A stretch of 64,000 nt of DNA from Gigantopelta aegis (Eukaryota; Mollusca; Gastropoda; Neomphalida; Peltospiridae), in NCBI RefSeq assembly GCF_016097555.1, contig NC_054707.1:89501-153500 (forward strand). Direction: 5' to 3'. The position numbers and the translations under genes are program-made. Within the stretch, counting starts at the first letter, position 1, and every line of letters begins with the position of its first letter. Shown piece by piece: positions 9,798-46,243 of this stretch. The notes under the pieces were generated by a model, which was not told the DNA's origin, ran no database searches, and saw nothing but the letters and a program-made list of their open reading frames with translations.

Positions 9798-12700
9798 TCT
9801 GGAGTCTCCGGTGCTACGTGTGTGACAACTCGGCGAACGGGGCGTGTGGCGAATATTTCAAGATGTATCAGTTCAAAGCGCTCAACTGTCCCGGATCAGA
9901 CTTCAAGTGTGGCAAACAGACCCAGCCTCCTCTACCAGGTGAGTCAGTACCATGTCCCTGGTCAGACGTCAAGTGTGGCAAACAGACCCAGCCCCCTCTC
10001 TCAGGTGAGTCAGTACCATGTTCCTGGTCAGACGTCAAGTGTGGCAAACAGACCCAGCCCCCTCTACCAGGTGAGTCAGTACCATGTCCCTGGTCAGACG
10101 TCAAGTGTGGCAAACAGACCCAGCCCCCTCTACCAGGTGAGTCAGTACCATGTCCCTGGTCAGACTTCAAATGTGGCAAACAGACCCAGCCTCCTCTCCC
10201 AGGTGAGTCAGTACGATGTCCCTGGTCAGACGTCAATTGTGGCACACAGACCCAGCCGCCTCTCCCAGGTGAGTCAGTACCAGGTCCCTGGTCAGACTTC
10301 AAGTGTGGCAAACAGACCCAGCCCCCTCTCTCAGGTGAGTCAGTACCATGTTCCTGGTCAGACGTCAAGTGTGGCAAACAGACCCAGCCCCCTCTACCAG
10401 GTGAGTCAGTACCATGTCCCTGGTCAGACGTCAAGTGTGGCAAACAGACCCAGCCCCCTCTACCAGGTGAGTCAGTACCATGTCCCTGGTCAGACTTCAA
10501 ATGTGGCAAACAGACCCAGCCTCCTCTCCCAGGTGAGTCAGTACCATGTCCCTGGTCAGACGTCAAGTGTGGCAAACAGACCCAGCCGCCTCTCCCAGGT
10601 GAGTCAGTACCAGGTCCCTGGTCAGACTTCAAATGTGGCAAACAGACCCAGCCTCTTCTCCCAGGTGAGTCAGTACCATGTCCCTGGTCAGACTTCAAGT
10701 GTGGCAAGCAAACCCAGCCTCCTCTCCCAGGTGAGTCAGTACCATGTCCCTGGTCAGACGTCAAGTGTGGCAAGCAGACCCAACCTCCTGTCCCAGGTGA
10801 GTCAGTACCATGTCCCTGGCCAGACGTCAAGTGTGGCAAACAGACCCAGCCGACTCTCCCAGGTGAGTCAGTACCATGTCCCTGGTCAGACGTCAAGTGT
10901 GGCAAACAGACCCAGCCGCCTCTCTCAGGTGAGTCAGTACCATGTCCCTGGTCAGACGTCAAGTGTGGCAAACAGACCCAGCCCCCTCTCCCAGGTGAGT
11001 CAGTACCATGTCCCTGATCAGGCTTCAAGTGTGGTAAACAGACCCAGCCGCCTCTCCCAGGTGAGTCAGTACCATGTCCCTGGTCAGACGTCAAGTGTGG
11101 CAAACAGACCCAGCCCCCTCTCCCAGGTGAGTCAGTACCATGTCCCTGATCAGGCTTCAAGTGTGGTAAACAGACCCAGCCCCCTCTCTCAGGTGAGTCA
11201 GTACCATGTCCCTGGTCAGACTTCAAGTGTGACAAACAGACCCAGCCCCCTCTCTCAGGTGAGTCAGTACCATGTTCCTGGTCAGACGTCAAGTGTGGCA
11301 AACAGACCCAGCCCCCTCTCTCAGGTGAGTCAGTACCATGTTCCTGGTCAGACGTCAAGTGTGGCAAACAGACCCAGCCCCCTCTACCAGGTGAGTCAGT
11401 ACCATGTCCCTGGTCAGACGTCAAGTGTGGCAAACAGACCCAGCCCCCTCTACCAGGTGAGTCAGTACCATGTCCCTGGTCAGACGTCAAGTGTGGCAAA
11501 CAGACCCAGCCCCCTCTACCAGGTGAGTCAGTACCATGCCCCTGGTCAGACGTCAAGTGTGGCAAACAGACCCAGCCTCCTCTCCCAGGTGAGTCAGTAC
11601 CATGTCCCTGGTCAGACTTCAAGTGTGGCAAACAGACCCAGCCTCCTCTCCCAGGTGAGTCAGTACCATGTCTCTGGTCAGACGTCAAGTGTGGCAAACA
11701 GACCCAGCCCCCTCTCCCAGGTGAGTCAGTACCATGTCCCTGATCTGGCTTCAAGTGTGGCAAACAGACCCAGCCGACTCTCCCAGGTGAGTCAGTACCA
11801 TGTCCCTGGTCAGACTTTAAGTGTGGCAAGCAGACCCAGCCTCCTCTCCCAGGTGAGTCAGTACCATGTCCCTGGTCAGACGTCAAGTGTGGCAAGCAGA
11901 CCCAGCCTCCTCTCCCAGGTGAGTCAGTACCATGTCCCTGGCCAGACTTCAAGTGTGGCAAACAGACCCAGCCTCCTCTCCCAGGTGAGTCAGTACCATG
12001 TCTCTGGTCAGACGTCAATTGTGGCAAACAGACCCAGCCCCCTCTCCCAGGTGAGTCAGTACCATGTCCCTGATCAGGCTTCAAGTGTGGTAAACAGACC
12101 CAGCCCCCTCTCTCAGGTGAGTCAGTACCATGTCCCTGGTCAGACGTCAAGTGTGGCAAACAGACCCAGCCCCCTCTCCCAGGTGAGTCAGTACCATGTC
12201 CCTGATCTGGCTTCAAGTGTGGTAAACAGACCCAGCCCCCTCTCTCAGGTGAGTCAGTACCATGTCCCTGGTCAGACTTCAAGTGTGATAAACAGACCCA
12301 ACCCCCTCTACCAGGTGAATTAAATACACGGTAACCAGTATCTCAAACCTATGGTGGCATAAAACTGCCATTGACTTAACGACGTGATTTAGAAACGTCT
12401 CTACCAGATGGTATCTTTCTAGGCGTTTTGTTAGTATAACGATATACTAAGCCAACATAATGGGAGTGTATCACATGTTCAAACCTTACCCTAACCCTAC
12501 CCCTACCTTTAACTCTTTAGTTATATGATAATGTCGATGGCAGTTCTATGCCAAAATACTAACCTCACTTAATACGTTATACGCAGATATAGAAGTATGA
12601 TGAACTACGAAATATTTTACTATATTTGTAGGAGGCTGGGTGTAACGTTATTCTATATTTGTAGGAGGCTAAATGTGACATGTTATTCTCTATTTGCAGG

Positions 12701-15700: not shown

Positions 15701-18539
15701 CTGGGTAGGAGTGATCAGACGGGACATATGCTATTCTATATTTATAGGAGGCTAGATGTGACATGTTGTTCTGTATTTGTACGCTGGATGTGACATGTTA
15801 TTCTGTATTTGTAGGTGGCTAGATGTGACATGTTATTCTATATTTGTAGGAGGCTAGATATGACGTTATTCTATATTTGTAGGAGGCTGGGTAGGAGTGA
15901 TCAGATGTGACATATGTTATTCTTTGTTTGTAGGAGGCTAGATGTGACATGTTATTCTGTATTTGTAGGAGGCTAGATGTGACGTTATTCTATATTTGTA
16001 GGAGGCTAGATGTGACATGTTATTCTATATTTGTAGGAGGCTTGATGTGACATGTTATTCTATATATGTAGGAGGCTAGATGTGACATGTTATTCTATAT
16101 TTGTAGGAGGCTAGATGCGACATGTTATTCTATATTTGTAGGAGGCTGGGTAGGAGTGATCAGATGTGATATGTTATTCTATATTTGTAGGAGGCTAGAT
16201 GTGACGTTATTCTATATTTGTAGGAGGCTTGATGTGACGTTATTATATATATGTAGGAGGCTAGATGTGACATGTTATTCTATATTTGTAGGAGGCTACA
16301 TGTGACATGTTATTCTATATTTGTAGGAGGCTAGATGTGACATGTTATTCTATATATGTAGGCTAGATGTGACATATTATTCTATATTTGTAGGAGGCTG
16401 GATGTGATATGTTATTCTATATTTGTAGGAGGTTGGGTAGGAGTGATCAGATGTGACATGTTATTCTATATTTGTAGGAGGCTAGATGTGACATGTTATT
16501 CTATATTTGTAGGAGGCTTGATGTGACATGTTATTCTATATATGTAGGAGGCTAGATGTGACATGTTATTCTATATTTGTAGGAGGCTAGATGCGACATG
16601 TTATTCTATATTTGTAGGAGGCTAGATGTGACATGTTATTCTGTATTTGTAGGAGGCTAGATGTGACATGTTATTCTATATTTGTAGGAGGCTAGATGTG
16701 ACATGTTATTCTCTATTTGTAGGAGGCTGGGTGTGACGTTATTCTCTATTTGTAGGAGGCTGGGTAGGAGTGATCAGGACCTGTCACGTGTTATTCTCTA
16801 TTTGTAGGAGGCTGGGTAGGAGTGATCAAGAGCTGGTATATATGCTCTTCAAAAAAAGAAACGCAAAAGGGTACAAATGGGTTATAACTCCGATTTTATG
16901 TTTCCTACCGGTTCATGCTTTGTGAATATAAGGTCATTGCATGCCCCAAACACATTCCCACGGTTACATTCGATAAAACGCAGCTACTGTACAATAAAGT
17001 TCCAAAATGTGAATATTCGCAAAAACGCAGCCACGTGCAAACCATGTCACCACTGCACGTGCGTTGTCTGCACGTGCAACATGAACACCGACAGTATAAA
17101 AGTGCAGGGTGTTCGCTTGCCTGGCCTCTGTGTCTGGCCGACAGTTGACAATCCAGGACATGCCACGTCTCAGTGAACCGCAGAGAAACAATGCCATCGG
17201 CCGACTAGACGCAGGCGAATCCAGACTGTGGGACCGTTACCAGCAACATGGATCAACACGTGACCTCCCTAGATCCGGTCGACCACGGGTCACTACCCCC
17301 GGGCAGGACCGCTACATCCGGGTACGCCACCTTCGGGAACGATTGACTACTGCCACCTCCACAGCCGCAGCAATACCAGGTTTGCGCAGGATATCCGACC
17401 AGACGTACGGAACCGCCTACGTGAGGTAGGAATTCGTGCCAGACGTCCAGTTCTCGGTGTCATCTTAACACCACAACACCGTCGACTCCGACTGCAGTGG
17501 TGCCAGATTCATCGACAATGGCCTCAACTGCGATGGAGACAGGTGTGGTTCAGTGACGAGTCCCGATTTCTGCTCCGACGTCATGATGGAAGATGTCGCG
17601 TGTATAGGCGTCGTGGTGAACGTTATGCGGCAAACTGCGTGCAGGAAGTGGACAGATTCGGCGGGGGTAGTGTCATGGTGTGGGCAGCCATCTCACACAC
17701 TGGCAGAACTGACCTGGTCCACGTGCAGGGCAACCTGAATGCACAGGGCTACATTGACCAGATCCTCCGGCCACACATCGTTCCAGTTATGGCCAACGCC
17801 AACGCAGTGTTCCAACATGACAACGCCAGGCCTCACACAGCATGTCTCACAACGGCTTTCCTACAGAACAACAACATTAATGTCCTTCTTTGGCCATCGA
17901 TATCACCGGATTTGAACCCAATTGAGCATCTATGGGACGAGTTGGACCGACGCCTCCGACAGCGACAACCACAGCCCCAGACCCTGCCCGAGCTGGCAGC
18001 AGCCTTGCAGGCCGAGTGGGCCACCATCCCCCGGGACGTCATCCGTACTCTGGTTGCTTCAATGGGCAGGCGGTGCCAGGCAGTTGTCAACACACGCGGA
18101 GGCCACACCCGGTATTGACTCCAGATGACCTTGACCTTTGTGGTGTGTCCTATCACTTACTCACAATGGACTAGAGTGAATTGTGAACAATCCTGCAACA
18201 TTTGGTAATTATCGGACTCACCATTCAGTAATTAAATCAATTCTCCAAATGTTACGACAATGTGGTTTTGCGTTTCTTCTTTTGAAGAGTATATTATTAT
18301 ATTATTATCTATTTGTAGGAGGCTGGGTAGGAGTGATCAGGAGCTGCTATCAAATGAACTCTCTCCCTGGCATCAACGAATCGGACGGCTGTCACCACTG
18401 GACACTTCCGGCCGACCCAGACAACTTCACCGCGACTCTGTGTTTCTGCAGTGAGGACATGTGTAACAGGGCAGGCGTACTTAAACCCACCTTCCACGTG
18501 GCCCTGGTCCTCGCGATCAGTGTACTCATGTGTAGATGA
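9798..18539 (+). CDS. Ly6/uPAR-type GPI-anchored protein, 3' two exons (5' end not found)
   Basis: Two coding exons. Exon A is 9798-9938 (phase-1 entry, ends CTCTACCAG before GTGAGT). Exon B is 18319-18539 (follows ATTTGTAG, ends in TGA). Both join in phase 1. The joined product has the ten-cysteine Ly6/uPAR pattern: RCYVC, GAC, LNC and FKC in exon A; RSC, DGC, LCFC and EDMCN in exon B. Two N-glycosylation sequons (NES, NFT) are present. A hydrophobic C-terminal tail after CNRAG (VALVLAISVLM) looks like a GPI-attachment signal, so the protein is probably secreted and lipid-anchored at the cell surface, similar to quiver/sleepless-like or CD59-like proteins. The exact subfamily and ligand are unknown. 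The signal-peptide exon was not identified and may lie upstream. The intron holds copies of both of its own splice sites (9888-12323 and 12620-16842) and a Tc1 element (16845-18289). Which donor is used in vivo is not certain. Confidence 0.8.
9888..12323 (+). repeat. 66-bp minisatellite spanning the Ly6 exon A 5' splice site (37 donors)
   Basis: Thirty-seven GT donors at an exact 66-bp spacing from 9939 to 12315, with no net indel. Each unit holds about 51 nt matching the end of exon A (GTGTGGCAAACAGACCCAG, CTCTACCAG) and about 15 nt of intron (GTGAGTCAGTACCATG). The first unit is the real exon end. The last donor is GTGAAT. Because 66 is divisible by three, three forward frames and one reverse frame are open over hundreds of codons. 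In the exon A frame translation stays open through the first 17 donors to a TGA at 11015. It could be read as an exonic coding repeat instead of intron; loss of the Ly6 spacing makes that less likely. Confidence 0.93.
12324..12619. other. Unique intron segment between the two splice-site arrays
   Basis: About 300 bp of non-repetitive sequence inside the Ly6 intron. No feature recognised. Confidence 0.6.
12620..16842 (+). repeat. About 35-bp minisatellite spanning the Ly6 exon B 3' splice site (>100 acceptors)
   Basis: More than 100 units of the form TTATTCTATATTTGTAG, GAGGCTAGATGTGACATG. The basic unit is 35 bp. Longer units read GAGGCTGGGTAGGAGTGATC and match the start of exon B at 18319 (GAGGCTGGGTAGGAGTGATC). 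Every unit therefore carries an intron end (TTTGTAG) plus the first nucleotides of exon B. Long blocks recur: the marker GATCAGACGGGACATATG appears at about 12975, 14560 and 15714, so the array also grew by kilobase-scale duplication. The copy just before the Tc1 insertion (about 16809-16840) holds about 31 nt of exon-like sequence. Confidence 0.93.
16845..18289 (+). mobile_element. Tc1/mariner transposon, copy 1 (defective)
   Basis: The ends are CTCTTCAAAAAAAGAAACGC and, inverted at the right, CTCTTCAAAAGAAGAAACGC; the terminal inverted repeats are about 24 bp. The right flank is TA. On the left the base next to CTCTTC is G (TATATG), not the A seen in the other copies. Nucleotide identity to copies at 42753 and 48100 is very high by eye. 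It lies between the acceptor array and the real exon B acceptor of the Ly6 gene, in the same orientation as the gene. Confidence 0.93.
17160..18118 (+). pseudogene. Tc1-like transposase, broken copy
   Basis: The reading starts with [10 protein letters not shown]. Relative to the copy at 43068 it lacks 48 bp, which removes 16 residues of the helix-turn-helix ([16 protein letters not shown]). The lost segment lies between two TCCAGA repeats, as in short-repeat-mediated deletion. A 1-bp deletion at about 17404 (GACCAGACGTACGG against GACCAGACCGTACGG) shifts the frame before the catalytic domain. The catalytic part is still readable from 17543: FSDES, then FQHDNARPH, then SPDLNPIEH, with 34 residues between the second D and the E (DD34E). 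Confidence 0.9.
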
Positions 18540-18804
18540 CGGGGACTCATTGACTAATAGTATAAACAATTGCGCACGTTATAAGTGGGCCTAATTCGCT
18601 AAATCTGAATGTCAAAACCGTATTCGTGATCAAATTCGTATCGCTGCACAAGGGAGAGTCGGTTTGAGATTTCAGACAAAGTAATTGCTACCAGGTTCTC
18701 GTCGTTAGCAGGACTGCCACGCCATAGGAGATTCTCGCAACTCTGCGATATAGCCGTGCAGGGCCACCAATTCAGGGACCGCTGGCAACTTTGCGATATC
18801 GCAC
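18540..18804 (+). other. 3' flank / probable 3' UTR of the Ly6-type gene
   Basis: No coding sequence. No strong polyadenylation signal immediately after the stop codon. An AATAAA at 18898 lies inside the next array and is only a possible signal. Confidence 0.35.
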
Positions 18805-19030: not shown

Positions 19031-19084
19031 GCAAGAACGATGTTTAAGATAGCTTTGTGAATTAGTTCCCGGATGATAGATCGT

Positions 19085-31700: not shown

Positions 31701-34700
31701 CTTTACTGTGCTGGGTATTGCTTTAACTTTGTATTTTATTCACGGTTCACAGATAATTTTCAAAAATCAAAGTTCTATATATTCTGTAAAAAAAAAATCT
31801 ATAATGAACTACCATTTTGTTACAAGTTTAACACTGAAACCAGAAAGACGTAAATGCTAAAGTTTTAAACTACGTGACGTCATTGTGTGTGCTAGTACCA
31901 AGGTGATTGGATTGTTGGCATCAAATCACCCAATAGTAGTGTACGTTAAACCAATGCATGATAATTGCTCAATGAGAAATTATGATTTTTATTTTCCCCG
32001 TTACGAGTGCCTGCAGGTGTAATAAATAACTTTATATCACTGCTTTTACATACATGTATATCCCTCCCCCCCACCCCCACCCCACCCCCCACCCACCCCC
32101 ACCGAAAACATGTTTTATAAAAGTGTTAAAACACTGACTACTGTACTTTTCACAAAGACTAGATATAACCAGTTTTCATTGTCAGTTACATACCTGGATG
32201 AAATGAGTCACGTACATGGACGAAGTGAGTCATGTACCTGGAAGAAGTGAGTCACACACCTGGACGAAGTGAGTCACGTACCTGGATGAAGTGATCACAC
32301 ACTTGGTCGAAGTGAGTCACATACCTGGATGAAGTGAGTCACGTACCTGGACGAAGTGAGTCACGTACCTGGATGAAGTGATCACACACCTGGACAAAGT
32401 GAATCATGTACCTGGACGAAGTGAGTCACACACCTGGACGAAGTGAGTCATGTACCTGTACAAACTGAGTCACGTACCTGGACGAAGTGAATCACATACC
32501 TGGACGAAGTGTCACACATACCTGGACAAAGTGACACACATACCTGGACGAAGTGAATCACATACCTGGACGAAGTGAATCATATACCTGGACGAAGTGA
32601 ATCATATACCTGGACGAAGTGAATCATATACCTGGACGAAGGGGATAACCCTCTCTGTTGTGGTGGACTTCTGACTTTGGAATGTTGTAATACTCAGGTG
32701 TAAAACCATACTGCTTCCACACCTGGTGAAAGTTGTGGATTGTTTTCATCGCTTTATCAATATCCCCAAGAAGACACTGCAAAAATAACAACATCACCTA
32801 CAACAACTGAACATAATTATTATACTTTACTGATGTATATTGTAAAAGTTCAAATTTGTTTATTCAATGTCAAACATTTGGTAATTTTTTACACAAAGTG
32901 TTAGAGGAAACCTGCTACATTTTTCTACCAACAACAAGGAATATTTTATATGAATTTTCCTCACAGACAGGACAGAACATACCATGGCCTTTGATAAACC
33001 AATCGTGGTGCACTGGTTGGGACAGAAAAAGGCCCAATCAGAGAATGGGTCGACTAGATCAGAGAATGGGTTGACTGGATCAGAGAATGGGTCGACTAGA
33101 TCAGAGAATGGGTCCACTAGATCCTGCCCCCGATGTACCGGTACATACCGGTGACATAAGACACTTAATTATGTGTTGTAGTTTACATACTCTTCAGCAT
33201 TCAATGATTGTCTCAATTACACAAATAAGTAGATAGCAGAGATGTGTGCACAGGAACCAAACTGAATATAACTACACAAATAAGTAGATAGCAGAGATGT
33301 GTGCACAGGAACCAAACTGAATATAACTACACAAATAAGTAAATAGCAGAGATGTGTGCCCAGAAACCAAACTGAATATAACTACACAAATAAGTAGATA
33401 GCAGAGATGTGTGCCCAGAAACCAAACTGAATATAACTACACAAATAAAGTAGATAGCAGAGATGTGTGCCCATGAACCAAACTGAATATAACTACACAA
33501 ATAAAGTAGATAGCAGAGATGTGTGCCCAGGAACCAAACTGAATATAACTACACAAATAAAGTAGATAGCATAGATGTGTGCCCAGGAACCAAACTGAAT
33601 ATAACTACACAAATAAAGTAGATAGCAGAGATCTGTGCCCATGAACCAAACTGAATATAACTACACAAATAAAGTAGATGGCATAGATGTGTGCCCAAGA
33701 ACAAAACTGAATATAAACACACAAATAAAGTAGATAGCAGAGATGTGTGCCCATGAACCAAACTGAATATAACTACACAAATAAAGTAGATAGCACAGAT
33801 GTGTGCCCAGGAACCAAACTGAATATAACTACACAAATAAAGTAGATAGCATAGATGTGTGCCCAGGAACCAAACTGAATATAACTACACAAATAAAGTA
33901 GATAGCAGAGATGTGTGCCCAGGAACCAAACTGAATATAACTACACAAATAAAGTAGATAGCACAGATGTGTGCCCAGGAACCAAACTGAATATAACTAC
34001 ACAAATAAATTGAGAATGACACGAAGCAGGGTTTGTTTTACCTGAATACCAGGCAGGTAACAGTCGAGTGATGTGAACAGAGGAAGAGTTATTCCCCCTT
34101 TTTTCATGTGGGCCCACATGTACCAGTCGTCTCGCTTCAGATGTTTCTCGATTATCTTCTCGTATTCTGCACGATAGAAACTCAAAATTACTCCAGTCTT
34201 CAATAACATGTTAAGCATTTTTCTTCTAAACTGATCTGATTATCATAATGTATTATTTTGTAAATCGTCTGGTGGGCTCCCTTTGTTTAAATAATGATAA
34301 TTTCAAGGAAACTGTTGTTTTGTCAAACCATGTCTGAATAAACTTTGACCAGAGTTAACAATTAACACACCAGCCTCAGTGGTATAGTGGTTACGCCATT
34401 GGAAGTAAGCAGAGGTGGATCTAGAGGGGGACCCCAGGGGCCCGCCCTTCCTAAATTTCCCCCAATGTTTCCTTGATATTCCACCTCATGTCACTGAGGC
34501 CCTCGTAAATGGATTTTCTGGATCCGCCATTGGAAGTAAGGTTCATAGGTATTGGGTTCCACTCCTGATACTGGCTTCCACTCAGAACAACTTTAACGAC
34601 TCGATGACCACCACACCATCTTCTATCTCACTAACAACAACTCTCTGTCCTGGACAGACAGTCCAGATAGCTGAGGTGTGTGCCCAAGACAATATGCTTA

Positions 34701-37700
34701 AACCTTAATTGGATATAAGCAGGAAAAGAACCAACCTACAAATGAAATAAAATGATCAAGTAACAAACAGGTTACAGTTTATGTTTGTTTTGTTGTAAAA
34801 CACACTGATTTATTGTTCAAGTCAAACATTGAGTAATTTTGAAATATAGTCTTAGAGAGGAAACCTGGAACATTTTTCCCTTAGTAGCAAGAATCACGTA
34901 TATGCACCATCCCACAGACAGGATAGCATATACCACAGCCTTTGATATACCAGTTGTGTAGCACCGGCTCAATTAACAAAAATGCAAGCTTTGTATGCTT
35001 TGTAAAACCAAAAACAAATAATTATATATTTTGTAACATAAAGAAAATGCCAAACATATCTGTATATATTTAATTTCAATAATTAAAAGGCTCTGAAATT
35101 AAAAGTTAAAAATTTATTTTATTTAGTGACACAACTATAGAACATCGATTTATTAATCATCAGCTACTGGATGTCAAACATTTTGTAATTCTGACATCTA
35201 ATCTTAGAGGAAACCAGCTACATACCTCCACTAACAATGAGATCTTTATATACACTTGTTTTATATAGGTATAAACCAGGCATGGGAAAAAAAACCCAAC
35301 TGGAGAATTAGTCCACTGAAGTGATTCGATCCTATGACGTAAGCACCTCAGGTGAGAGCTCTACCGACTAAGCTAGATCCCAGCCCTAAAGAGCTCTCTT
35401 AGTGGGGAACGTTTTAACAAGGACAGCAGCAAACTGAAGCTCTGGTCTCTGTCAGTGATTACCTCGGTACATCTGCAGCAGTTCTGGGATTTGAAACATG
35501 ATCGACCCTTTAACGAGATACTCAAAGTACGAGTCTATTCCGCCACCGACTCCCGAATCTAGTGCCGTCCATTTCCCGTCTGACACGTCCACATGGTTAC
35601 CAACCTACAACAAGTAACGTCCACATGGTTACCAACCTACAACATGTTAAAGGTAAAGTTTGTTTAGTTTAACGACACCACTAGAGCACATTGATGTATT
35701 AATCACTGGCTACTTGTTTAGTTTAACGACACCACTAGAGCACATTGATGTATTAATCACTGGCTACTGGATGTCAAACATTTTGTAATTTTTACATTTA
35801 GTCTTAGAGAAAACCTGCTACATTTTTTCACAAGTAGCAAGGGATCTTTTATATGTACCATCCCACAGACAGGATAGCACATACCACAGCCTTGGATATA
35901 CCAGTTGTGGGGATCTTTTATATGTACCATCCCACAGACAGGATAGCACATACCACAGCCTTGGATATACCAGTTGTGGGGATCTTTTATATGTACCATC
36001 CCAGACAGGATAGCACATACCACAGCCTTGGATATACCAGTTGTGGGGATCTTTTATATGTACCATCCCACAGACAGGATAGCACATACCACAGCCTTGG
36101 ATATACCAGTTGTGGGGATCTTTTATATGTACCATCCCACAGACAGGATAGCACATACCACAGCCTTGGATATATCAGTTGTGGGGATCTTTTATATGTA
36201 CCATCCCACAGACAGGATAGCACATACCACAGCCTTGGATATACCAGTTGTGGGGATCTTTTATATGTACCATCCCACAGACAGGATAGCACATACCACA
36301 GCCTTAGATATACCAGTCATGGTATGAGAAATAGCAAAAGTGCCCACTGATGGGGATTGATCCTAGACCGACCGTGCATCAGGCGAACACTTTACCACTG
36401 GGCTACGCCCCAACAAGAAACACAACTGCGTAACACAACTCAGTGACACAACTCAGTAACGTCTCCTGTCACTCGATACAACTCAGTAACGTCCCCTGTC
36501 ACTCGATACAACTCAGTAACGTCTCCTGTCACTCGATACAACTCAGTAACGTCTCCTGTCACTCGATACAACTCAGTAACGTCTCCTGTCACTCGATACA
36601 ACTCAGTAACGTCCCATGTCACTCGATACAACTCAGTAACGCCCCATGTCACTCGATACAACTCAGTAACGTCTCCTGTCACTCGATACAACTCAGTAAC
36701 GTCTCCTTTCATTCGATACAACTCAGTAACGTCTCCTGTCACTCGATACAACTCAGTAACGTCTCCTGTCACTCGATACAACTCAGTAACGTCTCCTGTC
36801 ACTCGATACAACTCAGTAACGTCTCCTGTCACTCGATACAACTCAGTAACGTCTCCTGTCACTCGACACAACTCAGTAACGTCTCCTGTCACTCGACACA
36901 ACTCAGTAACGTCTCATGTCACTCGACACAACTCAGTAACGTCTCCTGTCACTCGACACAACTCATTAACGTCTCCTGTCACTCGACACAACTCAGTAAC
37001 GTCTCCTGTCACTCGACACAACTCAGTAACGTCTCCTGTCACTCGACACAACTCAGCAACGTCTCCTGTCACTCGATACATCTCAGTAACGTCTCCTGTC
37101 ACTCGACACAACTCAGTAACGTCTCCTGTCACTCGATACAACTCAGCAACGTCTCCTGTCACTCGATACATCTCAGTAACGTCTCCTGTCACTCGATACA
37201 TCTCAGCGGAAACATGAAGTATTATTCCTGTTTATTTCAGGTACACTGTATGAGTATGTAAATCAAGTCAGGAAGCAGTTCCGTGACGTAGCTGTGGATG
37301 TGAGGCCTACATGTAGGTGATGACACAAGTCATATCTTATAACACAACGTAGACATTTGAATTTACTTTTTATCTTGTTTCTAAATTTTCTGTCATGACA
37401 CAAAACAACATTTCATGATAAAAGTTTTAATTAGTTCTCACAAGCTCTTCAAAACCAAAAGTCATACTTAAAAAAAACAAATAAATTAATGTTTTTTGTC
37501 TTTGTTGTAATTTCATATGACCAAAATAAAGCATTAAAGAAGATATCTTGCTAGTTGGACATATGGTTAAGGAACACACAAATAAGGAGAGAGGAAACAT
37601 TCTTCTGCCATAATTACTAGCAAGGGATCTTTTATATCACCATCCCACAGACAGGATAATATATACCATGGCATTTGCTACATCAGTTGTGGAGCACTGG

Positions 37701-40700
37701 CTGGAATGAGAAATAACACAATTGGCCCACTGATGGCGATTGATCCTAGACTGACAACGCATACATTACCACAGTGCTACATCCCACCCTCTTACGACAT
37801 AGAGAGGTTTGTCATAAACACAGATAAACTAATCTAGTCCACCGTGCTTAAACAGCTAAAAAACCCACCTAAAATAACATGTTTAACCCAGTAGTCCGCC
37901 GGGCTTAAACATCTAAAAACCCACCTAAAATAACATGTTTAACCTAGTAGTCCGCCGGGCTTAAACATCTAAAAAACCCACCTAAAATAACATGTTTAAC
38001 CCAGTAGTCCGCCGTGCTTAAACATCTAAAAACCCACCTAAAATAACATGTTTAACCCAGTAGTCCGCCGGGCTTAAACATCTAAAACAACCCACCTAAA
38101 ATAACATGTTTAAATAAAAGTTACTGATTTTGCCTTTTTCTCTCTTTTTTAAATTTATTAAAATTGTTGGGCTTCCAATTTTTACTGAGAGCTACCAGAT
38201 TTTAAAACCTGGTAGCCCACCGGGCTACTAAAAAAAGTTAAGGTCAAGATCTGCTCATGTGAGTGAGCGCTCAACTGACAAAGCTAGATTCTGCCTCAGT
38301 TTGTTATAACTACAGATATCCTAAACTTACGAGTCCCAGTTCCGACCGAGCATCCCACAATGCCCGGAGAGCTCTCATTGCCACCTTTTCGAAGACCGGA
38401 TCCCCGGTGAGTCGGCTCAGAGAACCAAACTCTATAATAAACGTCCCCACACCAGCGGTGCATGTCACAGTTGTCTCCCCTCGAGGAACTCCATGGCGAA
38501 GGTTTACTGTCCCGTATGGCATACCAGTCGGGGTGTCAAATGCTGAAATGTAAAATTAATCTGTGTAATACGTATTATGTGTACCTGTAAGAAACTGAAC
38601 ACCAATAAGTAAAAATTAATCCACAGGAAAAAAAGAAATATTTTATTTTAAAAAAATTAAAAATATATGTTTGTTTTGTTTAATGACATCACTACAACAC
38701 ATTGATTTATTCATCATACGCTGTTAGATGTCAAACATTTGGTGATTCTATCAGTCTTATTGAGAAAATCTGCTTAAATTTTCAATTAGTAGCAAGGGAT
38801 CTTTTATATGCACCATCTCATAGACAGGACAGTACATACCAAGGACTTTGATATACCAGTCGTGAGGCACTGGCTGGAATGAGAAATAGCCCAATGGGCT
38901 CACTTACAGGGATCGATCTTGGATGGACCAAACATATTTCTCCACAGTTATACGGCCTCAGACATATGGTTTAATAGCATGAAGCTAACGAGTGGGCTAC
39001 TCTGTCCAACCCCGCCCTCTAACCCACATGATGTCATCTGGTGTGATGATGTAAAACAATACATGTATAATGACACAATGACAGGAAACGTTACCTGGTA
39101 GAAGTTTTCTCGCTATATTCTCTGCCATGAAGCGTTACCTGGAAGAAGTTTTCTCGCTATATTCTCTGCCATGAAGCGTTACCTGGAAGAAGCTTTCTCG
39201 CTATATTCTCTGCCATAAAGCGTTACCTGGAAGAAGCTTTCTCGCTATATTCTCTGCCATAAAGCGTTACCTGGAAGAAGCTTTCTCGCTATATTCTCTG
39301 CCATGAAGCGTTACCTGGTAGAAGCTTTCTCGCTATATTCTCTGCCATAAAGCGTTACCTGGAGGAAGTTTTCTCGCTATATTCTCTGCCATGAAGCGTT
39401 ACCTGGAAGAAGCTTTCTCGCTATATTCTCTGCCATGAAGCGTTACCTGGAAGAAGCTTTCTCGCTATATTCTCTGCCATGAAGCGTTACCTGGTAGAAG
39501 CTTTCTCGCTATATTCTCTGCCATGAAGCGTTACCTGGTAGAAGCTTTCTCGCTATATTCTCTGCCATAAAGCGTTACCTGGTAGAAGCTTTCTCGCTAT
39601 ATTCTCTGCCATAAAGCGTTACCTGGAAGAAGCTTTCTCGCTATATTCTCTGCCATAAAGCGTTACCTGGAAGAAGCTTTCTCGCTATATTCTCTGCCAT
39701 AAAGCGTTACCTGGAAGAAGCTTTCTCGCTATATTCTCTGCCATAAAGCGTTACCTGGAAGAAGCTTTCTCGCTATATTCTCTGCCATAAAGCGTTACCT
39801 GGAGGAAGCTTTCTCGCTATATTCTCTGCCATAAAGCGTTACCTGGAGGAAGCTTTCTCGCTATATTCTCTGCCATAAAGCGTTACCTGGAAGAAGCTTT
39901 CTCGCTATATTCTCTGCCATAAAGCGTTACCTGGAAGAAGCTTTCTCGCTATATTCTCTGCCATAAAGCGTTACCTGGAAGAAGCTTTCTCGCTATATTC
40001 TCTGCCATAAAGCGTTACCTGGAAGAAGCTTTCTCGCTATATTCTCTGCCATGCGTAGCAGTGGTCCAGAACATGGCCACCCCGGTTCAAGCACCATCCC
40101 AGCTCGGAGCTGGAACAAATGAGCCGACAGCAAACCACCCACAACTACAATATATAATTGACAAATCTCAAACCACCCACAGCTACAATATACAAGTGAC
40201 AAACTCTCAAACCACCCACAACTACAATATATAATTGACAAATCTCAAACCACCCACAGCTACAATATACAAGTGACAAATCTCAAACCACCCACAGCTA
40301 CAATATACAAGTGACAAACTCTCAAACCACCCACAGCTACAATATACAAGTACTCTCAAACCACCCACAACTACAATAAATAATTGACAAACTCTCAAAC
40401 CACCCACAACTACAATAAATAACTGACAAACTTTCAAACCACCCACAACTACAATATACAATTGACAAACTCTCAAACCACCCACAACTACAATATACAA
40501 TTGACAAACTCTCAAACCACCCACAACTACAATATACAATTGACAAACACTCAAACCACCCACAACTACAATATACAATTGACAAACTCTCAAACCACCC
40601 ACAACTACAATATACAATTGACAAACTCTCAAACTACCCACAACTACAATAAATAATTGACAAACTCTCAAACCACCCACAACTACAATATACAATTGAC

Positions 40701-43700
40701 AAACTCTCAAACCACCCACAACTACAATAAATAACTGACAAACTCTCAAACCACCCACAACTACAATATACAATTGACAAACTCTCAAACCACCCACAAC
40801 TACAATATACAATTGACAAACTCTCAAACCACCCACAACTACAATATACAATTGACAAACTCTCAAACCACCCACAACTACAATATACAATTGACAAACT
40901 CTCAAACCACCCACAACTACAATATACAATTGACAAACTCTCAAACCACCCACAACTACAATATACAATTGACAAACTCTCAAACCACCCACAACTACAA
41001 TATATAACTGACAAACTCTCAAACCACCCACAACTACAATAAATAATTGACAAACTCTCAAACCACCTACAACTACCATATATAACTGACAAACTCTTGT
41101 TGGTTAATAGGACCCATATTTTTTAAGCTATCTTAGTGCTATAATATCGTAAAACTATTGTAGGTTATGATATCACTATGATGTGTGTCTTAAGGTGTCA
41201 TAGCCTATGACAGTTTTACAGTGTCAGAATATCGTAGCCCTTAGATAGCTTCAAAATTCTCTAGTCAGTGTTTTTCACTGTACTGATACTGGACAAACTT
41301 AGCACATCTTTTACAGTATTTTGGCAGTATTGTCTAACGAGACAATACTGATAGCACATAATTTATCTAAACCTAAGAGTCATTGAAAACAAAAGAAGAA
41401 AGAAATTGAATACATTTTTTTTCTTTTTTAATAGAAATTGAAGATTTTTAACTTTAGTGGCACTGAACAAATGTTTACAGCCATTATGTTGTTTACATAT
41501 CTGATAGAGCTATGTAGGTCTATGTGAGATGTCTAGACATACATCTAAAATTGATTTCAAACACACGCAGTGATACATACATGTACAACATGTAAACACA
41601 CCTCAGAGTTATGGTAAGTGTTGGTAAGTGAACCACGAGTATGATTTTATGCGGAATACAAATAGTAATAGTGGCTCATATGAAGAAGATAATATTATTT
41701 GGGCGACTAACGCCATTATTTTTTGTTAATATTTAAGTCGCCGAAACAGGACATTCGTCACATTTGGCGACCTGGCCATAGGCCGTTTCGAGCCCTGGTA
41801 TATGCAATATCTAAGTTAAAGACACCTCTGATATTAGTTTCAAACACGGACGCATTGATGTCGAGGTCGAACAAATCTGCCGAGTTATCGATGAGCACCT
41901 GCGCAATGCGGCGGAACTCAGAGTTGTTTCCCATGATGATCAGCGTGTCGAGCGCATCAATCAACGTCAACGAATAACTGAAAGAAATATTACAAAGAGA
42001 CCAGGTCAAACATTTCAAATATTATAAACACATACCAACATGTTAACCATTTAAGAAATTATAAACAACAAACCAAATCAAACATTTTAAAAATTATAGA
42101 CATATCACATTTCAGATATCATAAAGAAAAACAAAGTCAAATATTTCATTAATTATAAGCAAACCACAACATATTATATATTTTAGAAATTGTGAACACA
42201 ACACAATACTAAACAGGGACTGATGCAAGGTATTTCTAGGGAGGGGTGCAAAGTTTAATAAGACCATTTCCAGTATTAAAAAATAACTAATTTATTATGT
42301 TTCCCACTAAAAACCAACACATTTCAAAGGCATTATTTCATCTGTTAAACACTGGTTGGGGGGGAGGGGGGGGGGGTGGAGGTCCAAACACTTTGAACGT
42401 TGGTATATGTGTATACCCAGCACCCTCCCCTTGGATCCGTAACTACTAAACATTTCAGAAAACATAAAATAGACAGCACACGCATGTGACTTGCCGAAAA
42501 ACAAACCTACATATTCACTCAGCTTTTATCCCCCTCAACTGTTTTTTTTTTAATGAATGTGATATTCCCAATCTTTATGCAGACTGGCATCGATCTGGCT
42601 GAATATGTTTCATCACATTTTTAAATTAAAAAACAAAAAATCTATGAAACGTATGCTTGGATTAAATTTATTTTCAACAGTGTGCTAAATTTATCATTAT
42701 TTTATCTCTTGAAAATTCAGGGTAATTTCTGCATACTTGAACTGAATATATACTCTTCAAAAAAAGAAACGCAAAAGGGTACAAATGGGTTATAACTCCG
42801 ATTTTATGTTTCCTACCGGTTCATGCTTTGTGAATATAAGGTCATTGCATGTCCCAAACACATTCCCACGGTTACATTCGATAAAACGCAGCTACTGTAC
42901 AATAAAGTTCCAAAATGTGAATATTCGCAAAAACGCAGCCACGTGCAAACCATGTCACCACTGCACGTGCGTTGTCTGCACGTGCAACATGAACACCGAC
43001 AGTATAAAAGTGCAGGGTGTTCGCTTGCCTGGCCTCTGTATCTGGCCGACAGTTGACAATCCAGGACATGCCACGTCTCAGTGAACCGCAGAGAAACAAT
43101 GCCATCGGCCGACTAGACGCAGGCGAATCCAGAACGGCCGTTGCCAGGGCATTCCATGTGTCCCCAAGCACCATCTCCAGACTGTGGGACCGTTACCAGC
43201 AACATGGATCAACACGTGACCTCCCTAGATCCGGTCGACCACGGGTCACTACCCCCGGGCAGGACCGCTACATCCGGGTACGCCACCTTCGGGAACGATT
43301 GACTACTGCCACCTCCACAGCTGCAGCAATACCAGGTTTGCGCAGGATATCCGACCAGACCGTACGGAACCGCCTACGTGAGGTAGGAATTCGTGCCAGA
43401 CGTCCAGTTCGAGGTGTCATCTTAACACCACAACACCGTCGACTCCGACTGCAGTGGTGCCAGATTCATCGACAATGGCCTCAACTGCGATGGAGACCGG
43501 TGTGGTTCAGTGACGAGTCCCGATTTCTGCTCCGACGTCATGATGGAAGATGTCGCGTGTATAGGCGTCGTGGTGAACGTTATGCGGCAAACTGCGTGCA
43601 GGAAGTGGACAGATTCGGCGGGGGTAGTGTCATGGTGTGGGCAGCCATCTCACACACTGGCAGAACTGACCTGGTCCACGTGCAGGGCAACCTGAATGCA

Positions 43701-46243
43701 CAGGGCTACACTGACCAGATCCTCCGGCCACACATCGTTCCAGTTATGGCCAACGCCAACGCAGTGTTCCAACATGACAACGCCAGGCCTCACACAGCAC
43801 GTCTCACAACGGCTTTCCTACAGAACAACATTAATGTCCTTCCTTGGCCATCGATATCACCGGATTTGAACCCAATTGAGTATCTATGGGACGAGTTGGA
43901 CCGACGCCTCCGACAGCGACAACCACAGCCCCAGACCCTGCCCGAGCTGGCAGCAGCCTTGCAGGCCGAGTGGGCCACCATCCCCCGGGACGTTATCCGT
44001 ACTCTGGTTGCTTCAATGGGCAGGCGGTGCCAGGCAGTTGTCAACACACGCGGAGGCCACACCCGGTATTGACTCCAGATGACCTTGACCTTGGTGGTGT
44101 GTCCTATCACTTACTCACAATGGACTAGAGTGAATTGTGAACAATTCTGCAACATTTGGTAATTATCGGACTCACCATTCAATAATTAAATCAATTCTCC
44201 AAATGTTACGACAATGTGGTTTTGCGTTTCTTCTTTTGAAGAGTATATATAAAACCCAAACACTGGTAAGCATAAAATCCATATAAATATTTAAATGTAA
44301 ATTAAGACATTTTCCAAGCACAACCATAAAATTCAGGGATTCATCAAGATCTGTGCAAACTGACAAAGCTTTGATATCTACCGGTATGTACTTTAAGTTA
44401 GTTTATTGTTAACTCCATGGTAAAAACACATTTAGGTAAAAACTTACCTTCCCCAAGTATCGTGCCCATTGCAGGTCAAAGGTTGAAGTTCATCATATGG
44501 ATAGGCATGTTTCAGGTAGCCTTCATATGCATGGTTAAACATATTAATAACACGACCTCTGAAACAACAAAACAAATAACGTGTTAAACATATTAATAAC
44601 ACAGCCTCTGAAACAACATAACAAATAATGTGTTAAACATATTAATAACACAGCCTCTAAAACAACATAACAAATAATGTGTTTCTTTAAACATATTAAT
44701 AACATGACCTCTGAAACAACAAAACAAACAACATGTTAGTAACACCATTAACACAAGCTTTAAAAATATATTTTTGTAAAGTTCAAACAAGTAAAAACAT
44801 GTACCCAGCCATAATTACTGGAGGCAGATGGGCAAGAAGGCAATGGCCCCACCAGCTAAGATGTTCCATTTTTATCTAGCTAGAAAAAATATATATTACT
44901 TTTCCCCAATTCTTTTGTAACTAAATACACTGTACATAAGGGTCAAGCTGTTCAACAATTATGTAATGCTCTGGGAGAGAAAGGGGGATACAAGGGAAAA
45001 CATTCAGTGTCGCCACGCTATTCGCTATACAAATTTTAACTGATCACCAACTGTTGCTAATCAAATGTTTTAAAACAAAATGTTCCCTGGGTTATCATGG
45101 GATGCATTGTGAAATGCTACAGGGGAGGGAGGGGAGTGTTTGTCAACAATTATGTAACATGTTCAAAATAATTCCCATCTTTATTCATATTTTTATCTTT
45201 AACAGATGATTTTCTATCTAGCATATATATATATTACCAGACCTAATAATATTGGTCACTTTTTCGTGATTACGACAGAGAAAGCAGGAAAGGGTATACT
45301 GACAAGCATTTAACATGTATACTTTTAAACGAAGACTGGCCTTTGGGTTACTAACCTTTACTTGAGAAAAATCAGGGTTTCTGCCAGAATATGAAGGATA
45401 AATTTAAATTACATGCTCTAAAATTTAAAAAATAGATACATTTTTCTAATTTTAGAAATATTATAGCTAGTGAAAACTTTGCTTTGTTTAACAACACCAC
45501 TAGAGCACATTGATTAAATAATCATCGGCTATTGGATATCAAGCATTTGGTAATTACGACTCTTAAGTCATCAGAGGAAACCCGCTATATTTTTCCTAAT
45601 GCAGCACAGACAGGAAAACACATACCATGGCCCTTGACCAGTTGTGTTGCACTCACCAAAACAGATTATGTAATTAACAATATTTACGTCTGCTGTATGC
45701 TCGTTTTTGACGCACATGCAGTAAATTGTGCTACTTAGGGGCCAATTTAGTGCTCATTTGAAGTGTTGAAATACTAATAAAAAGGTAGCTATTTGGATAA
45801 CAATTGTCTGTTGGAAAGAGTTCCGTATTTTCCCCACTACTACAAACGACGTAGTGCTAGGCCTGGATTACGAAATATAAACATTATGTTGGTTTTATAG
45901 AACAGATTGTTTTAAAAGCTATTTTATATAACTATCGCTAACCCTAACCTTAAACTAATTCTAACAAATATTTCTTTAAAATCGTTATGGGGAAAATAAG
46001 GAACTCATGCCCATACGTTTGCGATTTAAAAAAAATTAATAACTAATAACGAATAGGCCTAAACTCTGAAAACTGGAATAAATAAATAAATAGAAAACTA
46101 CACCTGTATTTTATGAAGTCTTTTTCGGAAAATTTTAAAATTGTGTCACTGTCAGCGCTATATGGTGAAATACTAACTACTAAGAAAATTATTATACTAG
46201 AATAATATCGGGTTTGGGGTTGAATACTATTAAATAAGTGCAT
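28705..46243 (-). CDS. EDEM2: EDEM2, ER degradation-enhancing alpha-mannosidase-like protein 2 (10 exons, complete)
   Basis: Coding exons in transcription order: 46104-46243, 44448-44558, 41826-41977, 40019-40144, 38331-38542, 35463-35604, 34042-34166, 32632-32776, 31217-31338, 28705-29769. All have GT/AG junctions and matching phases, giving 2340 nt and 779 residues. A hydrophobic signal segment lies at about residues 17-30, then the GH47 domain at about 40-500. Family hallmarks: FETNIR with the catalytic-type Glu (E130), [15 protein letters not shown] (E275), [13 protein letters not shown], and [13 protein letters not shown], whose Thr488 matches the GH47 calcium ligand. The C-terminal CPAQPF (Cys757) matches human EDEM2 Cys558, which is reported to bond TXNDC11. 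The family acts in the ER lumen, trimming mannose from Man9 to Man8B glycans to start glycoprotein ERAD. The acidic, Thr/Ser/Asp-rich stretch between about 510 and 740 makes it about 200 residues longer than the human protein. Six exon borders are embedded in tandem repeats. Confidence 0.93.
29770..30950 (-). repeat. 66-bp minisatellite at the EDEM2 last-exon acceptor (about 17 extra copies)
   Basis: On the minus strand each unit ends in CTCTGTGTGTTTCAG, the same intron end as the real acceptor at 29770. It is followed by CTGAAAGACGTGTGAC where the exon has ATCAAGGATGTGCGTG. The intronic half is nearly identical to the real site; the exonic half matches only about 60%, so the exon part has diverged or was converted. 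Plus-strand translations of about 100 aa are artefacts of the 66-bp period. Confidence 0.85.
31511..31582. repeat. Inverted repeat, 16-bp arms
   Basis: CCAGTTATTATCAAAT and ATTTGATAATAACTGG flank a spacer of about 40 bp, inside an EDEM2 intron. It may be part of a MITE whose ends I cannot fix. No gene is seen in 31339-32050. Confidence 0.6.
32190..32640 (-). repeat. 22-bp minisatellite spanning the EDEM2 exon 8 donor (about 20 copies)
   Basis: Read on the minus strand, the unit is CTTCGTCCAG then GTATATGATTCA or GTATGTGACTCA. It contains the last 10 nt of exon 8 and the GT donor. The unit adjoining the exon (ending at 32632) is the real donor. Units drift in sequence away from the exon (GTGAGTCACGTACC type), and a few are 21 bp. 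Confidence 0.92.
32850..33128 (-). mobile_element. tRNA-derived SINE with tandemly repeated head segment
   Basis: Reverse copy with core blocks AGAGGAAACCTGCTACAT, CAGACAGGACAGAACAT and CTTTGATAAACCAATCG. In the head, a 20-bp segment (AGAGAATGGGTCGACTAGAT) is repeated four times before GATCCTGCCCC. Inside an EDEM2 intron. Confidence 0.83.
33190..34010. repeat. About 56-bp minisatellite in EDEM2 intron 7
   Basis: About 15 units containing AAGTAGATAGCAGAGATGTG, TGCCCAGGAACCAAACTG and AATATAACTACACAAATA. It stops about 30 bp short of the exon 7 donor at 34042 and does not include exon sequence. Confidence 0.93.
34372..34715 (+). mobile_element. tRNA-derived SINE (third head type) carrying a small insertion
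   Basis: The head reads CAGCCTCAGTGGTATAGTGG, is interrupted after CCATTGGAAGTAAG, and resumes with GTTCATAGGTATTGGGTTCC. The body ends GCTTAAACCTTAATTGGATA. The interruption (34411-34525) begins CAGAGGTGGATCTAGA and ends TCTGGATCCGC, which are imperfect inverted ends. It is flanked by a direct repeat CATTGGAAGTAAG, so a nested insertion with a duplication of about 13 bp is visible. Confidence 0.75.
34782..34965 (-). mobile_element. SINE fragment, main family
   Basis: Tail and core only: ACACTGATTTATTG, AGAGAGGAAACC, CACCATCCCACAGACAGGAT, GATATACCAGTTGTG. The head is missing. Confidence 0.82.
35109..35390 (-). mobile_element. tRNA-derived SINE, diverged
   Basis: Reverse copy with CATCGATTTATTAATCATC, CTACTGGATGTCAAAC and a head ending AAGCTAGATCCCAGCCC. 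The central core is partly deleted. Confidence 0.8.
35585..35650 (-). repeat. Two-copy 32-bp duplication at the EDEM2 exon 6 acceptor
   Basis: On the minus strand, TTGTAG then GTTGGTAACCATGTGGACG (acceptor plus 19 nt of exon 6) occurs at the real junction (exon edge 35604). It is repeated once, 32 bp further upstream in the intron, in the same order and orientation. Confidence 0.88.
35655..36413 (-). mobile_element. SINE with internal tandem expansion (7 x 69 bp)
   Basis: A main-family SINE in reverse. The tail segment containing GAGCACATTGATGTATTAAT is present twice (about 35660-35765). The core segment GGATCTTTTATATGTACCAT to CCAGTTGTGG is tandemly repeated seven times (starts near 35840, 35909, 35978, 36044, 36113, 36182, 36251). 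The head follows normally to GGGCTACGCCCC. The translations on both strands come from the 69-bp period. Confidence 0.92.
36428..37210. repeat. 30-bp minisatellite in EDEM2 intron 5
   Basis: About 26 units of ACTCAGTAACGTCTCCTGTC plus ACTCGATACA, almost without indels. There is no match to the neighbouring exon edges (38331 or 35604). Confidence 0.96.
37545..37795 (-). mobile_element. SINE, partial
   Basis: Reverse copy from GGACATATGGTTAAGGAACA through AGCAAGGGATCTTTTATATC to a diverged head (GATTGATCCTAGACTGAC, CTACATCCCACCC). Confidence 0.8.
37840..38115. repeat. About 58-bp tandem repeat (about 4.5 copies)
   Basis: Units contain CAGTAGTCCGCCGGGCTTAA, ACATCTAAAAACCCACC and TAAAATAACATGTTTAA. 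EDEM2 intron 5. Confidence 0.92.
38668..38935 (-). mobile_element. SINE, main family, diverged
   Basis: Reverse copy: GTTTTGTTTAATGACATCAC, CATTTGGTGATTC, AGCAAGGGATCTTTTATATG, CCAGTCGTGAGGCACTGGCT, and a diverged head at the end. Confidence 0.83.
39086..40052 (-). repeat. 44-bp minisatellite spanning the EDEM2 exon 4 donor (22 donors)
   Basis: Twenty-two units at an exact 44-bp spacing (donor GT at 40017-40018, then every 44 bp down to 39093-39094). On the minus strand the unit contains 34 nt equal to the end of exon 4 (ATGGCAGAGAATATAGCGAG, AAAGCTTCTTCCAG) plus 10 nt of intron (GTAACGCTTT). The exon-proximal unit is the real one. As 44 is not divisible by three, use of a distal donor would shift the frame. 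Confidence 0.95.
40130..41100 (-). repeat. 39-bp minisatellite spanning the EDEM2 exon 4 acceptor (25 acceptors)
   Basis: Twenty-five copies of ATTGTATATTGTAG then TTGTGGGTGGTTTG on the minus strand: the acceptor with the first 14 nt of exon 4, followed by AGAGTTTGTCA. The real acceptor is at 40145-40146. Distal units are exactly 39 bp; the six nearest the exon vary (34-39 bp), so upstream acceptors are mostly out of frame with the exon. Confidence 0.95.
41101..41825. other. EDEM2 intron 3, unique part
   Basis: No additional exon or element recognised. AT-rich. Confidence 0.5.
41978..42752. other. EDEM2 intron 2, part before the transposon
   Basis: AT-rich. It contains three imperfect repeats of a 40-50-bp AAATTATAAACA/AAACATTTC-type segment (about 42005-42210) and a G-run at 42357-42377. 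No gene. Confidence 0.5.
42753..44243 (+). mobile_element. Tc1/mariner transposon, copy 2 (complete ends, open transposase)
   Basis: 1491 bp. The ends are CTCTTCAAAAAAAGAAACGC and inverted CTCTTCAAAAGAAGAAACGC. TA flanks both sides within a TATATA context. It lies in EDEM2 intron 2 in opposite orientation to the gene. The 5' leader has CAATAAAG and GTATAAAAG motifs before the transposase ATG. Very similar to copies 1 and 3, hence a recent insertion. Confidence 0.95.
43068..44072 (+). CDS. Tc1-like transposase, uninterrupted (334 aa)
   Basis: I chose the ATG at 43068 ([10 protein letters not shown]). An in-frame ATG at 43017 would add 17 residues that look like leader sequence. Domains: paired-type helix-turn-helix at about residues 5-110 ([20 protein letters not shown]), an AT-hook-like RSGRPR at 55, and a DDE catalytic domain with D149 (FSDES), D237 (QHDNARPH) and E271 (SPDLNPIEY). 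[12 protein letters not shown] precedes the second Asp, as in the family. Between D237 and E271 there are 33 residues, one fewer than in the other two copies, because one Asn of an NNN run is missing. The enzyme would cut and paste the element at TA sites. Whether this copy is active is unknown; its reading frame is whole. Confidence 0.93.
   Translation: MPRLSEPQRNNAIGRLDAGESRTAVARAFHVSPSTISRLWDRYQQHGSTRDLPRSGRPRVTTPGQDRYIRVRHLRERLTTATSTAAAIPGLRRISDQTVRNRLREVGIRARRPVRGVILTPQHRRLRLQWCQIHRQWPQLRWRPVWFSDESRFLLRRHDGRCRVYRRRGERYAANCVQEVDRFGGGSVMVWAAISHTGRTDLVHVQGNLNAQGYTDQILRPHIVPVMANANAVFQHDNARPHTARLTTAFLQNNINVLPWPSISPDLNPIEYLWDELDRRLRQRQPQPQTLPELAAALQAEWATIPRDVIRTLVASMGRRCQAVVNTRGGHTRY
44540..44745 (-). 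repeat. About 54-bp repeat spanning the EDEM2 exon 2 acceptor (4 copies)
   Basis: On the minus strand, TTGTTGTTTCAG then AGGTCGTGTTATTAATATG (acceptor plus about 24 nt of exon 2) occurs at the real junction (exon edge 44558). Three more copies follow upstream (near 44609, 44662 and 44715). One copy has lost the AG by CAG to TAG/TTAG-type change. Confidence 0.88.
44746..45477. other. EDEM2 intron 1, unique part
   Basis: AT-rich. No exon or element recognised. Confidence 0.5.
45478..45660 (-). mobile_element. SINE fragment, main family
   Basis: Reverse tail and core: TTTAACAACACCACTAGAGC, ACATTGATTAAATAATCATC, AGAGGAAACCCGCTATAT. A central deletion leads to ACACATACCATGGCCCTTG. Confidence 0.82.

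Follow-up and report, generated by a model that had tools for sequence, protein, structure and literature searches.

Minisatellites across exon-intron junctions in Gigantopelta aegis: probable random birth and tolerance at the splice site

Two genes with arrays at their exon borders

The stretch analysed here (the window) comprises 64,000 nucleotides of contig C9 of the deep-sea vent snail Gigantopelta aegis (C9:89501-153500) and lies 89 kb from the end of that contig (84,917,595 bases, ~85 Mb). The assembly, 1.149 Gb in 5216 contigs, combines PacBio long reads and Hi-C data, with polishing by Illumina reads (PMC7895826). Two genes in the window, EDEM2 (GH47 family) and a Quiver/Ly-6 gene, have exon borders inside tandem arrays, and the repeated unit holds both the exon edge and the splice dinucleotide. 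We argue below that these arrays are probably minisatellites that arise everywhere and are tolerated across exon edges. Positions are those of the window unless a contig is named.

EDEM2 occupies 28705..46243 on the minus strand, with 10 exons and 18 splice junctions. Exons 1 to 5 lie at 46104-46243, 44448-44558, 41826-41977, 40019-40144 and 38331-38542, and exons 6 to 10 at 35463-35604, 34042-34166, 32632-32776, 31217-31338 and 28705-29769. When joined, exons 2 to 10 give a single open frame with GT-AG borders; the product matches Pfam GH47 (E 8e-114), and a stretch of 498 residues, which starts in exon 2 and reaches exon 10, shows 100% identity to a G. aegis database protein (P0001). Exon 1 was placed from P0001 together with the sequence, with its donor at 46103; our chance and intron-end counts took 46101 as the exon 1 edge, and no array is nearby.

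Arrays were called with Tandem Repeats Finder (TRF; 81 rows in the window) and with a period detector of our own, which returned 33 array segments, or 30 once the pieces of the Ly-6 acceptor array were merged. Twelve of the detector's arrays belong to EDEM2: five cross a junction (strict cases), one abuts a junction and six make no contact with an exon. The strict cases, all on the minus strand, are located at the exon 2 acceptor (44534..44738; 4 x 49-54 bp, 25 bp of exon inside), the exon 4 acceptor (40131..41097; 25 x 39 bp, 14 bp of exon inside), the exon 4 donor (39089..40052; 22 x 44 bp, 34 bp of exon inside), the exon 6 acceptor (35585..35644; 1.9 x 32 bp, found by our own detector and absent from the TRF list) and the exon 8 donor (32184..32641; ~20 x 22 bp, 10 bp of exon inside).

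The Quiver/Ly-6 gene lies on the plus strand and is recognised by a Pfam QVR match (PF17064; E 7e-12). Its exon A (9798..9938) has its donor at 9939, within an array of 37 x 66 bp (9887..12318) that contains 52 bp of the exon; the chance and unit-end counts took this donor as 9932, which is still within the array. The acceptor of exon B (18319..18539) is carried by an array of ~111 units of 35 bp plus longer variants (12620..16828). A transposon of ~1.46 kb (16838..18294), also read on the plus strand, separates this array from the lone last acceptor copy, which adjoins exon B. The transposon, putatively Tc1-like, is present in three copies in the window (16838-18294, 42746-44248 and 48093-49564) that are 98.5-99% alike over their longest stretches.

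A first-pass annotation, made from the letters alone, had named seven exon borders within arrays; the five strict EDEM2 cases and the two in the Quiver/Ly-6 gene are those seven, each recovered by TRF and/or our own detector, and its copy numbers agree with ours to within counting error. A probable eighth, an array of 17 x 66 bp at EDEM2 exon 10 (29770..30917, minus strand), ends exactly at the acceptor without strictly crossing it. Its unit reads L-K-D-V-stop against I-K-D-V in exon 10, and 9/15 bases match, which is consistent with the exon side of the unit being an old, diverged copy of the exon 10 edge. The statement that other arrays in the window stay off exons is true of six of the 12 EDEM2 detector arrays but not of a two-copy 72-bp array (24 amino acids, an in-frame length) that TRF found inside coding exon 10 (29247-29388) and our detector skipped; exons are thus not always free of arrays. 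Three more intronic EDEM2 arrays were called by TRF and skipped by our detector (32068-32103, 36419-36460 and 42005-42102), none of them in contact with an exon.

Several further observations concern the surroundings of these arrays. The frame that leads from exon A into its donor array (9939-12318) is open for 16 added units of 22 amino acids, most of the 22-amino-acid units have two cysteines, and the 17th unit has a stop. An array of 14 x 56 bp (33218-34009) stops 33 bp into intron 7 of EDEM2, near the exon 7 donor. Large arrays sit at both ends of the window (1-1358 and 61722-63991) in no mapped exon, the second running on into the neighbouring C9 stretch (L025 1-1387). Array coverage is 28-45% over C9:69.5-173.5 kb, only 3% over the adjoining 10 kb, and 0 to 32% in GH47 regions on other contigs, so array density differs by region.

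Composition of the units

The arrays consist of head-to-tail units of ~10-100 bp that, for the four units we searched in the genome, are specific to their locus, and we class them as minisatellites (candidate variable number tandem repeats, VNTRs). All 108 matches listed in that search, which skips very common words, lie at the units' own places in the window. The first-pass view that the arrays are not one transposable repeat is upheld for these four units, and a single dispersed element was rejected as their source.

Within an array the units vary among themselves, with a mean of 2-11% per column, and nearly every unit holds the splice dinucleotide, as had been claimed. Where units were chosen by a seed over the splice site, GT was kept in 22/22 units at the EDEM2 exon 4 donor, 20/20 at the exon 8 donor and 37/37 at the Ly-6 exon A donor; AG was kept in 25/25 at exon 4, 4/4 at exon 2, 2/2 at exon 6, 110/111 at Ly-6 exon B and 16/18 at exon 10. 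A seed-free alignment of seven arrays gave 12 dinucleotide variants, where the mean column rate predicts 20.5. Among the acceptors in that alignment, observed and expected variants were 0 and 2.0 at exon 4, 1 and 1.0 at exon 2, 2 and 0.8 at exon 10, and 9 and 8.5 at Ly-6 exon B, where eight of the nine are gaps.

Unit borders show no fixed position with respect to the junction: exon sequence makes up between 0.25 and 0.81 of the unit, and a uniform distribution of this share is not rejected (Kolmogorov-Smirnov p = 0.39 on 12 values, with the Ly-6 exon A share entered as 0.70, the correct value being 0.79). Of 13 scored arrays, 5 have a unit length divisible by 3, which indicates no frame bias. 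AGGT is present at the splice sites of the EDEM2 exon 4 and exon 8 donors, the Ly-6 exon A donor and the exon 4 and exon 5 donors of LOC121381188 (see below), and is absent at the acceptors of EDEM2 exons 4 and 10 and Ly-6 exon B. The outer copies decay, as read by eye, at two of the loci in other genes described next, with an in-frame stop in L069 and amino-acid changes in L059.

Arrays across junctions in other genes

LOC121381188, the next gene on C9, was mapped from database protein P0121 (1060 amino acids) and has 13 exons and 24 junctions. It contains 10 arrays; a 17 x 99 bp array and an 11 x 26 bp array each run strictly across a donor, and two further arrays stop 4 and 9 bp short of acceptors.

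Elsewhere in the genome we used profile matches of the myosin, CCT and GH47 families as exon anchors. The rows used were 39/80 matches for myosin, 25/64 for CCT, 26/39 for GH47 (five of the 39 being EDEM2 itself and eight set aside for internal stops or small contigs) and 0/36 for MCM. This gave 90 exons, for which a splice-site score resolved 171/180 edges; the GH47 rate leaves out loci L011, L021 and L022. Four strict cases were found at the 171 junctions, all at myosin exons: the L032 donor on C8 (80 bp x at least 6.8), the L041 donor on C1 (85 bp x 6), the L059 donor on C5 (98 bp x 2) and the L069 acceptor on C1 (72 bp x 1.6). The L032 donor is put at 2077 by the score and at ~2030 by the sequence, inside the array either way. 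L041 and L069, separated by 24 kb, may belong to one gene. Two more arrays in the myosin set, at the L032 acceptor and the L058 donor, end no more than 10 bp from the junction, and no strict case was found at the 48 CCT junctions or the 48 junctions of GH47 paralogues. Since the C8, C1 and C5 cases are ~10.6, 20 and 3.2 Mb from the nearest contig end, arrays across junctions are not confined to contig ends.

A further gene of this kind is perhaps represented by L075 (C1:2916340-2916640), where the peptide of an exon matches Mediator subunit 12 (MED12; E 6e-9) and the donor motif is repeated at 141-bp steps. The step is longer than the exon (~130 bp), so the repeat is possibly a near-whole-exon duplication. 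Also on C1, an array of ~34-bp units (G000:C1:719698-722733) has CAGGTGAGT in nearly all of the units listed.

Discussion

We consider it probable that these arrays are locally born minisatellites which arise everywhere, in a genome that has many of them, and that those lying across exon edges are tolerated since the copy nearest the exon remains the splice site in use. In this model a segment of ~20-100 bp would be duplicated in tandem and the array would then expand. A founding segment that spanned an exon edge would place an exon end and a splice site in every unit, and birth across the edge would leave an intact copy beside the exon. Pairing of sites across the exon would then lead to use of the exon-nearest copy, the remaining copies becoming intron. 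Judged from the sequence, splicing presumably uses the exon-nearest site; two database proteins, P0001 and P0121, both follow exon-nearest copies. We infer that neutral tolerance, and not benefit, keeps the arrays in place.

The strength of the outer copies bears on how the used site might be chosen. In many cases an outer donor scores no lower than the used donor (exon 4, 21/21; exon 8, 15/20; L032, 6/6; L059, 1/1; LOC121381188 exon 4, 16/16, and exon 5, 5/10), so the choice would have to rest on position. Most outer acceptors are weaker, those as strong as the used one numbering 1/3 at exon 2, 10/24 at exon 4, 0/1 at exon 6, 0/17 at exon 10 and 0/1 at L069, so that at acceptors strength may help. 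These scores cover the arrays of EDEM2, LOC121381188 and the myosin loci. In large introns, the sites closest to each other across the exon are reported to be preferred (PMC9225289). Section 5 of the same source gives the downstream 5' site as preferred in the majority of events of every class, so the exon-proximity rule is not absolute.

The first-pass annotation had left open whether arrays are born preferentially at splice junctions or are born everywhere and survive across an exon edge only when the junction stays usable. Our data lean to the second. The comparison used a null in which each array derives from one founding unit placed at random and a case is counted when the array crosses a junction; a test based on array coverage was rejected, as expanded arrays inflate the background. 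Selection against arrays extending into exons does not enter the expected values, and true enrichment could therefore be somewhat higher than the figures given here. LOC121381188 has 2 strict cases against 0.85 expected (10 arrays, 24 junctions) and the myosin set 4 against 1.82 (18 arrays, 75 junctions); there were 0 in CCT against 0.35 and 0 in GH47 against 0.49. Outside the discovery genes the sum is 6 strict cases where 3.5 are expected (P = 0.14; ratio 1.7, 95% interval 0.6-3.7), which is in line with random placement. Arrays no more than 10 bp from a junction in the myosin, CCT and GH47 sets number 6 against 4.3 expected. The lack of a fixed breakpoint and of a frame bias points the same way.

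Several observations weigh against random birth with tolerance. EDEM2 has 5 strict cases against 0.8 expected among its 12 detector arrays (P = 6e-4, or P = 5e-5 with the abutting exon 10 array counted), a P value that is not unbiased because the gene was chosen for looking striking; the three extra TRF arrays would add ~0.07 to the expectation. With EDEM2 included, the pool stands at 11 strict cases against 4.3 (P = 0.005). In the first 3 Mb of C1, among the matches listed, the strict donor motif lies in arrays at 6/52 loci compared with 3/137 for two control motifs (p = 0.014); on the forward strand alone, again among the matches listed, the figures are 5/44 and 1/85 (p = 0.017). Finally, the three donor arrays of the window have 0 GT variants where 8.15 would be expected, a hint of constraint; set against this hint are the seven-array total (12 and 20.5), the Ly-6 exon B count (9 and 8.5) and the loss of GT from 5/5 L041 decoys.

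The first three of these observations favour an alternative in which arrays start preferentially at splice junctions, through co-transcriptional R-loops, splice-site-like microhomology or repair templated by pre-mRNA. We regard this as doubtful, although the upper bound of the ratio outside the discovery genes, 3.7, leaves room for it. The sample outside the discovery genes agrees with no excess, breakpoints fall at no fixed place, and spliced mRNA was not the template, as the units hold intron as well as exon. The strict donor motif, which fits just 2/85 resolved donors, does have the highest tandem-triple share of four motifs in the whole genome (2099 matches in triples to 41233 singles, 5.1%), compared with 634/44954 (1.4%) for the motif written backwards and 857/42105 (2.0%) for the backwards form of a motif without GT; but the no-GT motif itself reaches 1717/39349 (4.4%), and these triples are matches and not arrays, with a spread between motifs too wide for a conclusion. 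When the 5' sides of six C1 donor-motif arrays were read, a recognised coding exon was present at one, that of MED12 (the L071 array exceeds the stretch). An array-proneness of GGTGAGT-like DNA would explain the C1 excess as well as splicing would. A related reading, in which donor and acceptor sequences seed tandem duplication at several times the frequency of other DNA, perhaps via co-transcriptional R-loops, and this snail lineage goes on adding ladders of splice sites at its exon borders, seems to us equally doubtful. A 17-amino-acid repeat frame was also seen on C1; its Pfam matches were all below the curated cut-offs, and we read them as chance.

It is also conceivable, and in our judgement very improbable, that the extra splice sites are useful, either as a buffer against mutation or as a source of regulated exon lengths, and that selection keeps the arrays. 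The near-constant retention of the splice dinucleotide (in units picked by seed), the many outer donors that score no lower than the used one and the 16 open units of the Ly-6 donor array would fit this proposal. Set against it are the absence of any bias to unit lengths in multiples of 3, the frequent weakness of outer acceptors, and the loss of sites: GT is gone in 5/5 outer copies of the L041 myosin donor array (1386-1901; C1, ~27.05 Mb) and AG in 2/18 exon 10 units. Furthermore, concerted evolution alone predicts high similarity between units. General selection on decoy splice sites, which the window donor arrays suggest, was rejected since L041 and the exon 10 array contradict it.

That the introns themselves were born from arrays, by tandem duplication of an AGGT-bearing exon segment with dual-specific splice sites, is largely refuted, and we give it hardly any credence. 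The three window donor arrays do carry CAG/GT after a pyrimidine-rich stretch, such that each unit could serve as both types of site, and the exon 4 donor position is not common to paralogue exons on C3 and C10, which run further, so that intron 4 may be younger. However, (i) of the 10 array-bearing introns in EDEM2 and LOC121381188, three of which have an array that abuts, none has both ends within one array; (ii) several arrays lie at acceptors that lack AGGT; and (iii) in the C3 paralogue the predicted start of one exon, compared by eye, is only a few bases away from the EDEM2 exon 4 acceptor and the predicted end of another is close to the exon 5 donor, from which EDEM2 introns 3 and 5 look old. 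An assembly artefact, with repeats collapsed or spuriously expanded, is the least credible account: tandem arrays are hard to assemble and copy numbers may be wrong, but the assembly combines long reads, Hi-C and polishing (PMC7895826), the units of an array vary, and similar arrays exist at several loci, the two-copy arrays of L059 and L069 among them. No second haplotype of the array-bearing loci was present among the sequence examined.

Each array sets up a natural competition for one exon among splice sites of almost the same sequence, as many as ~111 acceptors or 37 donors. Should the copy nearest the exon win every time, nature would have provided clean proof that sites pair across the exon; otherwise, array genes would make length-variable proteins, which the outer donors of the Ly-6 array could in principle yield. 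The arrays also show one route by which an intron can be lengthened harmlessly, and they can mislead gene annotation. Were their birth linked to junctions after all, splicing or transcription would be tied to repeat instability.

Comparison with known systems

Minisatellites, or VNTRs, occur in introns. The G. aegis arrays resemble them in having units of ~20-100 bp arranged head to tail with variant repeats, and differ from plain intronic minisatellites in that the unit spans the exon-intron border and brings a splice site with each copy.

The first-pass suggestion that no class of this kind has been described was too strong. TRF-found minisatellites at human exon-intron boundaries, with 27 intron modifications, were reported by De Grassi and Ciccarelli in 2009 (PMC2812944), and 792 human introns have been located in 262 tandem repeats, where splicing out of the expansion explains tolerance (PMC10809524). 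Human introns in tandem repeats and human boundary minisatellites are close relatives of the G. aegis arrays. As described in PMC2812944, the boundary repeats are reported to give rise to novel introns and alternative splicing within recent segmental duplications, whereas the G. aegis arrays lie at one end of an intron and reach ~111 copies. The repeats of PMC10809524, whose introns are spliced by dual-specific splice sites, share with ours a splice-site motif once per unit; a special case there (77 introns), in which intron length is a whole number of units and donor and acceptor are copies of one motif, corresponds to 0/10 introns in G. aegis.

Introns that arise from tandem arrays have been proposed (Zhuo 2007, as cited in PMC2812944). 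In tandem genomic duplication (PMC3443670) the duplicated segment also holds a splice-site-like AGGT; it is an exonic segment whose duplication gives a new intron, while in G. aegis the segment spans an existing junction and the other end of the intron lies outside the array. Competing splice sites side by side are likewise the subject of PMC9225289, as pairs of human sites where the G. aegis arrays offer 2 to ~111 copies. Among the titles and abstracts listed, with subscription journals mostly outside the search, none described arrays of such copy number across splice junctions. As far as our literature search shows, what G. aegis adds to these systems is the number of copies, the position at one intron end while the other end falls beyond the array, and the presence of such arrays in about six genes of a single snail.

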